Source of the DNA: Dyella sp. RRB7
GTDB taxonomy: Bacteria; Pseudomonadota; Gammaproteobacteria; Xanthomonadales; Rhodanobacteraceae
Reading direction: 5' to 3'
Assembly (NCBI RefSeq): GCF_022761115.1
Contig: NZ_JAKWJS010000001.1
Location: forward strand, 1,116,001 to 1,180,000
Length of the DNA: 64,000 bases
Shown: one piece after another, positions 2,434 through 3,335 of the stretch
Numbering within the stretch: position 1 is the stretch's first letter
Layout of the letters: each line of letters begins with the position of its first letter
The notes under the pieces: model-generated
Database searches by the model: none
What the model saw: the letters and a program-made list of their open reading frames with translations, nothing else
Told to the model about the DNA's origin: nothing
Translations under genes and position numbers: made by a program

Positions 2434-2488
2434 CCCGGCGGACTGTCCGCCGGGCTGTCCGGCCGCGGCCGGCCGCTGTCCGCGGACA
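2434..2488. promoter_or_regulatory. three tandem perfect palindromes upstream of a sigma-54 promoter
   Basis: Three perfect dyads lie within 55 bp. At 2434-2454, arms CCCGGCGGAC and GTCCGCCGGG surround one central T. At 2459-2472 is CCGGCCGCGGCCGG. At 2477-2488 is TGTCCGCGGACA. The word CTGTCC occurs in or beside each. They sit roughly 100-140 bp upstream of the start point expected from the sigma-54 promoter at 2555, the usual distance for enhancer-binding activator sites. The first could also act as a terminator-like hairpin, but no gene ends here. Activator function is inferred. Confidence 0.5.
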
Positions 2489-2554
2489 ATCTCCACGCGC
2501 CACCGCGCATCACGAATTTCCAACGATGACAGTCACTTGCGTGTGAATTCGGGT

Positions 2555-2571
2555 TTGGCACGGGCCTTGCC
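2555..2571 (+). promoter_or_regulatory. sigma-54 (RpoN) promoter
   Basis: TTGGCACGGGCCTTGCC matches the RpoN consensus TGGCACG-N4-TTGC at every fixed position, with GG (2557-2558) and GC (2569-2570) at the obligatory spacing. Transcription would start near 2582, giving a leader of about 36 nt before the ATG at 2618. Confidence 0.75.
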
Positions 2572-2617
2572 ATAGAAACCGTGCAGGACTATCCCACCAT
2601 TCATCGGAGACATGATC

Positions 2618-2818
2618 ATGAAATTCGAAGCCTTGATGCTGCGCGGCCTGTTCGTTGCCTGCCTGCTGGTCTGTGGACTCGTGCTGGGCGCCATGGTGAA
2701 CGCCTCGCCGGACGCCATTCGTCTCGCTGCCGCCGGCAGCGCCGGCCAGCTCATCGCCACCCCGGTGGCCTGCGCGCTGCCGCCCGACGGCGTGGTCTGC
2801 CCGCGCTCCAACGGTTGA
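2618..2818 (+). CDS. small exported peptide, unknown function
   Basis: A 66-residue protein I do not recognise. It has a short charged N-terminus, a hydrophobic stretch (about residues 10-27) and a plausible signal peptidase I site after VNA (residues 27-29). Cleavage would release about 37 residues with two cysteines (C52, C61) enclosing LPPD, which could form a small disulfide loop. Uncleaved, it would be a single-pass inner-membrane protein. The GGAGA at 2606-2610 is 7 nt from the ATG at 2618 but only 1 nt from the one at 2612, so 2618 is preferred. It lies behind a sigma-54 promoter. Confidence 0.7.
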   Translation: MKFEALMLRGLFVACLLVCGLVLGAMVNASPDAIRLAAAGSAGQLIATPVACALPPDGVVCPRSNG

Positions 2819-2870: not shown

Positions 2871-3335
2871 ATGCTGCATGTCATCCTCTTCCGTCCCGAA
2901 ATACCGCCCAACACCGGCAATGTGATCCGGTTGTGCGCCAACACCGGCGCCACGCTGCACCTGATCCGCCCCTTGGGTTTCGAACTCGACGACGCGCGCC
3001 TGCGACGCGCCGGCCTGGACTATCACGAGTACGCGCAGCTGGCCGTGCATGACGATCTCGCCAGCTGCCTGCAGCTCATCGGCCAGCCACGCCTGTTTGC
3101 CTTCTCGACACGCGGCCGCGTCGCCCATGTGGATGCGAAGTTCGCCGACGGCGACGCCCTGCTGTTCGGCTGCGAAACCGCCGGCCTGCCCGGCGACGTG
3201 CTCGATGCGATTCCCGAAGCCCAACGCCTGCGCCTGCCCATGCGCGCCGACAGCCGCAGCCTCAACCTTTCCAACACGGTCGCCGTGGCCGTGTACGAGG
3301 CCTGGCGGCAGTTGGGATTTGCCGGCGCGGCATAA
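2871..3335 (+). CDS. trmL: tRNA (cytidine/uridine-2'-O-)-methyltransferase TrmL
   Basis: SPOUT-class enzyme of 154 residues that 2'-O-methylates the wobble base of tRNA-Leu isoacceptors, using S-adenosylmethionine. The family signatures are clear: [18 protein letters not shown] near the N-terminus, [12 protein letters not shown] (about 103-114), and the C-terminal knot [19 protein letters not shown]. The length equals that of the E. coli protein (YibK). It acts as a cytoplasmic dimer. It is followed by ubiJ in the same direction after 48 nt. Confidence 0.95.

Follow-up and report, generated by a model that had tools for sequence, protein, structure and literature searches.

In the window, by which we mean the whole 64,000-nucleotide stretch of Dyella sp. 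RRB7 DNA that was analysed, a 66-residue open reading frame lies behind a sigma-54 promoter, raising the question of what kind of small protein is made there and which pathway it serves. The initial annotation read it as a small exported cysteine peptide under RpoN control. We find that the 66-codon frame and its -24/-12 promoter are real and conserved in Rhodanobacteraceae, and we propose, with a probability of about 45% for the explanation as a whole, that the product is a bitopic membrane microprotein which belongs to a regulon of sigma-54 and the response regulator P0002 and feeds back on its own pathway.

The window locus and the microprotein family

The microprotein gene (P0001; 2618-2818, + strand) runs from the ATG at 2618 to a stop codon ending at 2818, and its product has a predicted helix (residues 2-28) followed by a tail with C52 and C61; C15 and C19 sit within the hydrophobic stretch. 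Several elements that had been described here from the sequence were found again: the frame with its 66 residues, the two tail cysteines with eight residues in between, a well-placed ribosome-binding site (GGAGA, 2606-2610, + strand, 7 nt ahead of the ATG), and the RpoN promoter, which had been placed at 2555-2571. The promoter TGGCACGGGCCTTGCC occupies 2556-2571 on the + strand, and within it TGGCACGGGCCTTGC at 2556-2570 matches all 10 fixed positions of TGGCAC-N5-TTGC; from this geometry, the transcript would be expected to start at 2582 (+ strand). The gene opposite, upstream on the - strand (2-2341), is indeed that of an M16 peptidase as identified by Pfam; it diverges from the microprotein gene, reaches past the window edge and is probably outside the unit. 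Downstream, a SpoU-family methylase, which we take to be TrmL-like, is encoded at 2871-3335 (+ strand), its start lying 52 nt past the microprotein stop. No terminator-like site was found in this gap (2818-2871), so that the two genes are possibly co-transcribed and the RNA methylase may fall partly under the stress regulon. An element that had been overlooked within the same coordinates is the palindrome TGTCCGCGGACA at 2477-2488 (no strand assigned), the centre of which lies 73 nt before the -24 element and which is probably the enhancer (UAS) of an NtrC-family activator. It is accompanied by extra half-sites, also without strand, namely CGGACT at 2439-2444 and TGTCCG at 2444-2449 and 2456-2461.

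Taken alone, the promoter match in the window is at chance level, since the 16-base consensus with one mismatch allowed gives 3 matches in the window against 3.3 expected. It is conservation that raises it above chance and rules out a chance promoter, even though the number of matches is as expected in 64 kb. Among 72 loci in named genomes, 61 have a promoter matching 9 or 10 of the 10 positions upstream (10/10 in 58 of these); the remaining 11 have no promoter of their own, and in a set of 138 copies each promoter-less copy has a paralogue ending no more than 300 nt before it. The frame itself is under purifying selection, with a median dN/dS of 0.15 over 105 pairs from 15 Dyella sequences, of which the window is one, and an RpoN gene is present in the same genome. 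Thus, the frame is conserved beyond the nearest strains, being kept in Rhodanobacteraceae, and, within the limits of comparing sequences, the evidence supports a genuine small protein controlled by sigma-54.

In a search of 61 relatives, 31 of the 37 Rhodanobacteraceae genomes contained a strong homologue (E below 1e-10). The 72 named-genome loci belong mainly to Dyella, Rhodanobacter, Frateuria, Luteibacter and Oleiagrimonas. When 299 genomes of the order were searched, the microprotein was detected in 62 of the 76 genomes of this bacterial family, and three matches outside it were marginal (E 0.0037-0.0078). Merging exact duplicates reduced 215 frames to 146 copies; the start had to fit M[KNRT]x[EDQ], as it does in 215 of 219 frames, and the four frames left out (L029, L160, L206 and L209) look genuine and have a longer start. 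The copies fall into three size classes, with 29 of 24-29 residues (28 of these 27-29), 40 of 43-52 and 77 of 60-73, which have in common about 28 residues, MKFExLMLxSLFAACLLVCxLTLGAML. The number per genome ranges from 1 to at least 7, seven being listed individually in G301; G218 has 10 by count, three of which were inspected. At L142 and L144-L148, microprotein genes form clusters or tandem pairs inside a few kilobases.

At every orthologous locus compared, the TrmL-like gene lies downstream of a long-form copy like that of the window, and an M16 peptidase gene is the copy's other usual neighbour (not found at L049, L097, L106, L115 and L116). Paralogues elsewhere stand in varied surroundings, and a conserved neighbour of theirs is ruled out, as every neighbour cluster is confined to at most 7 of the 42 paralogue loci. 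When a more permissive profile search was applied to the 14 Rhodanobacteraceae genomes without a hit and to G020, from a different branch of this family, the one convincing match was in G020 (E 1.4e-6), the rest being at 0.0099 or worse. This divergent copy carries two tail cysteines and lies between the same TrmL-like and M16 neighbours, suggesting that the window-type locus is probably ancestral. The hit-less 14 genomes were also examined for a divergent copy over up to 500 nt upstream of trmL: no UAS was found there in any of them, and two have a 10/10 sigma-54-like site, at -497 and -435, without a UAS. P0001 matched nothing in Pfam at E up to 1 or in the PDB up to E 1, its best NCBIfam hit had an E of 0.46 with no model at cut-off, and phage families gave a single weak match (E 0.03).

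The palindrome, the regulon and its probable activator

The palindrome pattern TCCGCGGA occurs in 118 of 118 microprotein upstream regions, and in none of 118 control sequences. Where a copy has a promoter of its own (122 copies), the pattern is always found no more than 130 nt from the -24 element, at exactly 73 nt in 86 of them (range 63-75), and these promoters match TGGCAC-N5-TTGC at 10/10 positions in 106, 9/10 in 14 and 8/10 in 2. The remaining members of the 146 are 23 second genes of tandems and L209, which at first had neither promoter nor partner; it too is a second gene, its first gene being among the four dropped frames. The same picture emerged from the 138 copies of a promoter-blind set, from which loci retrieved through a DNA pattern or a promoter (L051-L058, L162-L176, L197-L226, and L289 on) are omitted: 117 had the sigma-54 promoter and the palindrome, 21 were second tandem genes, and none was anything else. 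At 2760 random positions, a sigma-54-like site was found at 170 and both elements at 4, positions within 250 nt of a microprotein copy not being scored as hits. Across the order, the combination of UAS and promoter was present in 65 of 299 genomes, all of them in this family: 62/62 family genomes with the microprotein, 3/14 without it and 0/223 genomes outside the family, with a reversed control pattern giving 0 in every row. The bare palindrome, with one mismatch allowed, is not enriched in the window's own genome (15 sites, against 14 for the reversed control), so only its pairing with the promoter stands out.

One of the five exact TGTCCGCGGACA sites in this genome (C19:96795, L166) has no sigma-54 site within 450 nt. 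Several 28-residue forms have TGGCAT in place of TGGCAC at -24. GlrR-type sites have the form TGTC-N10-GACA, and such a site was present in 0 of 118 upstream regions. A literature text search for the palindrome string or its core listed 9 papers with matches, one of them on a Mycobacterium (PMC6986058).

In the window's own genome, five palindrome sites are followed by a 10/10 promoter at 72-73 nt. They precede the window microprotein, a paralogue (with a palindrome one base off), an alpha/beta hydrolase, a DUF4440 protein and an HlyD-ATPase-permease operon that leads to the response regulator P0002 and the kinase P0004. P0002 has a receiver, a sigma-54 interaction domain and a Fis-type HTH, as in the NtrC family. 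At E up to 1e-95, relatives of P0002 are found in 192 of the 299 genomes of the order, among them 75 of the 76 from this bacterial family. Where a locus included the start of the P0002-linked HlyD gene (n=30), a 9-10/10 sigma-54 site lay upstream in 30/30, 16 of which come from microprotein-free genomes. A palindrome of the TGTCCG/CGGACA kind was present in 21 of these 30 regions, exactly as TGTCCGCGGACA in 18, the exact form being absent from the other 12; among the nine regions without a palindrome, TGTCCG half-sites were seen by eye in eight, and the ninth sequence is incomplete. Twenty more regions, hand-picked from the non-microprotein sites among the matches listed, contained 21 pairs of UAS and promoter, which precede 8 S33-type hydrolases, 6 MacB/FtsX permeases, 2 TolC-like (OEP) channels, and one each of an HlyD protein, a trypsin-like protein, a DUF4440 protein, an unassigned protein and a frame-less stretch; 10 of the proteins were assigned by Pfam and the others by likeness to these.

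The shared elements make it very likely that the microproteins and the exporter operon form one regulon under sigma-54 and the UAS, and P0002 is its likely activator, the sites that precede its own operon being our grounds for inferring that it binds the UAS. Bound to TGTCCGCGGACA, some 73 nt ahead of the -24 element, P0002 would, together with sigma-54, drive the microprotein family; the HlyD/MacB/FtsX exporter operon, with P0002 and P0004 at its end, would be autoregulated. By its contents, the regulon looks like one for envelope export and for the breakdown of peptides or antibiotics, and the inducing signal would be an envelope-active peptide or antibiotic. The 2.9-Mb genome G116 has a single microprotein gene (L247), preceded by both UAS and promoter, and no P0002 orthologue; a different activator may take over in this genome, or the unit may be a relic.

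Other candidates for the activator are less probable. The five own-genome sites precede no flagellar, pilus or nitrogen genes, which argues against FleQ, PilR and NtrC, and the 8 kb around the gene of the VpsR-like P0003 contain no UAS with one mismatch allowed, nor does P0003 have an orthologue in G116. The same genome encodes a second HlyD/permease operon (C1:622-628 kb; L179, 2259-8268) with its own NtrC-type regulator, P0005; this operon has a sigma-54 promoter and lacks the exact palindrome. At L191 (4429-6246), the permease genes of the exporter operon are separated from its regulator gene by one encoding a DUF885 protein.

Membrane protein, exported peptide and other readings

Structure prediction gave a helix over residues 2-28, with block pLDDT values of 80-96; in most of the tail the values are around 50 or lower. 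M1, K2, E4, L8, L11, F12, C19 and M26 in the hydrophobic stretch are conserved in all size classes. They tend to lie on one helix face, with a peak near 96 degrees and a permutation p of 0.02 at 100 degrees, a weak signal obtained from 54 rows of which one is a mis-started copy. The tail may be functional in the long sub-group, judging from the cysteine motif kept there: among copies of at least 60 residues, C-x(6-11)-C occurs in 76 of 77, against 0 of 69 shorter ones, and C52, L54, G58 and C61 are invariant in 14 aligned sequences. The hydrophobic stretch is thus the conserved core of the family and the sole content of the 27-29-residue forms, which makes "exported cysteine peptide" probably the wrong name, and the comparison indicates that the microprotein is very likely an uncleaved membrane protein. 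It would be bitopic in the inner membrane, with a short periplasmic tail and the N-terminus inside, a topology suggested by K2 and R9 ahead of the hydrophobic stretch.

The earlier reading, in which a signal peptide is cleaved off to release a signal, a toxin-like peptide or an envelope factor, drew on the signal-like N-terminus and the VNA before residue 30, and the conserved cysteine-pair tail of the long sub-group agrees with it. A signal peptide plus mature part is, however, not general in the family, as 29 of the 146 copies (24-29 residues) stop where the "signal peptide" would end and so have no mature part. The proposed VNA-type cleavage site fares little better, a -3/-1 cleavage-like pair being present in just 67 of the 117 copies long enough for one, and the supposed signal is itself conserved in sequence in all size classes, unlike a signal peptide. 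We consider release of an exported peptide very improbable. Slightly less improbable, though still a poor prospect, is a small hydrophobic toxin of the type I/TisB kind. Peptides of the TisB kind are small and hydrophobic, depolarise the inner membrane and slow growth; made under stress, the microprotein would do the same. The hydrophobic 24-29-residue forms and the scattered and tandem copies would suit such a toxin, but the core is nearly neutral (K2, E4), and the side chains conserved on one face suggest a specific partner.

That single conserved face also fits a protein partner in the exporter, and the UAS and promoter are common to the exporter genes, so the microproteins might be accessory subunits of the regulon's MacB-type exporters, sitting beside the FtsX-like permeases and aiding assembly or substrate handling. 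Against this, the window locus and its orthologues adjoin a methylase and a peptidase, and the paralogues, as described above, have no recurrent neighbour. Moreover, some genomes in which no microprotein was detected still have the exporter operon, indicating that the pump does not need the microprotein; we regard a subunit role as unlikely. Finally, the frame could be a leader that chiefly places the TrmL-like methylase under sigma-54 control, as the short gap, the lack of a terminator-like site in it and the constant methylase neighbour would allow. Yet paralogues with the same core and promoter adjoin varied genes elsewhere, and the amino acids are under selection, leaving this the least probable of these readings.

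Possible feedback on the kinase and comparison with known systems

We tentatively favour the possibility that the microprotein feeds back on the kinase. It would act on the pathway that produces it, as MgrB does on PhoQ; the conserved helix face would contact the kinase in its transmembrane part or, with lower probability, an exporter permease, and the microprotein copy number would set the feedback strength. Feedback is favoured because the kinase/regulator operon and the microproteins have one enhancer in common, because one helix face is conserved, and because a WPxP outer loop is found in the kinases of the microprotein-rich clade and not in 18 others. In the 44 P0002 loci minus L227, L238, L252 and L254, the outer loop of that clade's kinases is 25-34 residues long and contains WPxP in 22/22, whereas WPxP occurs in 0/18 of the other kinases, 17 of which have a loop of 7-8 residues. 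Because the loop is tied to one clade, its link with the microprotein could be a matter of phylogeny alone, and there are two exceptions: G020 has a microprotein and no loop, and G025 has a loop without WPxP and no microprotein.

A more elaborate and rather speculative version is that the two-component system controls itself via dispersed, multi-copy, nearly interchangeable microproteins, their copy number setting the gain of the sensor kinase, and that the kinase gained the WPxP loop where the family expanded. Each copy would then be a portable cassette of an enhancer palindrome, a sigma-54 promoter at a fixed distance and a helix of about 28 residues. Overall, microproteins and an export pump appear to be switched on together in one mostly-soil bacterial family, the microproteins most likely tuning the controlling sensor.

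These analyses turn a single unexplained frame into a defined Rhodanobacteraceae regulon, comprising a microprotein family, an enhancer motif, a probable activator, and co-regulated exporters and hydrolases. Neither the microprotein nor its enhancer was found described in the search listings of the literature, nor did they yield an account of the membrane microprotein family, as yet without a name, as part of a sigma-54 regulon. The near-complete link of the microprotein with the enhancer and promoter allows the question of why bacteria under envelope stress produce tiny membrane proteins to be tested directly, with the varied copy numbers and the forms down to 27 residues as a natural series.

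Sigma-54-dependent small membrane proteins in envelope stress include PspB, PspC and PspD of the Psp system. Different from these, P0001 has no Pfam match, the activator is another one, and the genes are scattered single-gene units. In the BceRS-BceAB and Lia modules of Firmicutes, a kinase with a short outer loop lies beside an FtsX-type exporter, and small membrane proteins are among the outputs; sigma-54 is not known to be involved there, and the regulator class and the membrane proteins differ from ours. The exporter genes resemble those of MacAB-TolC-type systems in bringing an HlyD adaptor, an ABC ATPase, a MacB_PCD/FtsX permease and an OEP channel into one regulon, and differ in having several permease-like frames per operon, a sigma-54 promoter, and a response regulator and kinase in the operon. 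One sigma-54 regulon survey reports that the ATPase of antimicrobial-peptide-type ABC transporters (COG1136) is enriched in Opitutia (PMC12316311).

The closest parallel in function would be MgrB. MgrB, of 47 aa in E. coli, inhibits the sensor kinase PhoQ. Three papers describe it as a small inner-membrane protein that is regulated by PhoP, interacts with PhoQ, has important periplasmic tail cysteines (C28 and C39) and a conserved cysteine in its helix, and belongs to a two-component regulon responding to antimicrobial peptides (PMC8404706, PMC10576120, PMC2789325). In comparison with MgrB as described there, the microprotein proposed here would likewise be a small inner-membrane protein in a two-component regulon, with two tail cysteines and a cysteine in the helix. 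Unlike MgrB, it is under sigma-54/NtrC-type rather than PhoP control, is present in several copies per genome, and has sub-groups without tail cysteines. Membership of the MgrB family is not supported, as judged via Pfam alone, where P0001 has no match at E up to 1; if the feedback model is right, the microprotein would work like MgrB nonetheless. Should the microproteins act on the kinase, they would, with no detected sequence relation to MgrB, bring an MgrB-like principle under the control of sigma-54.
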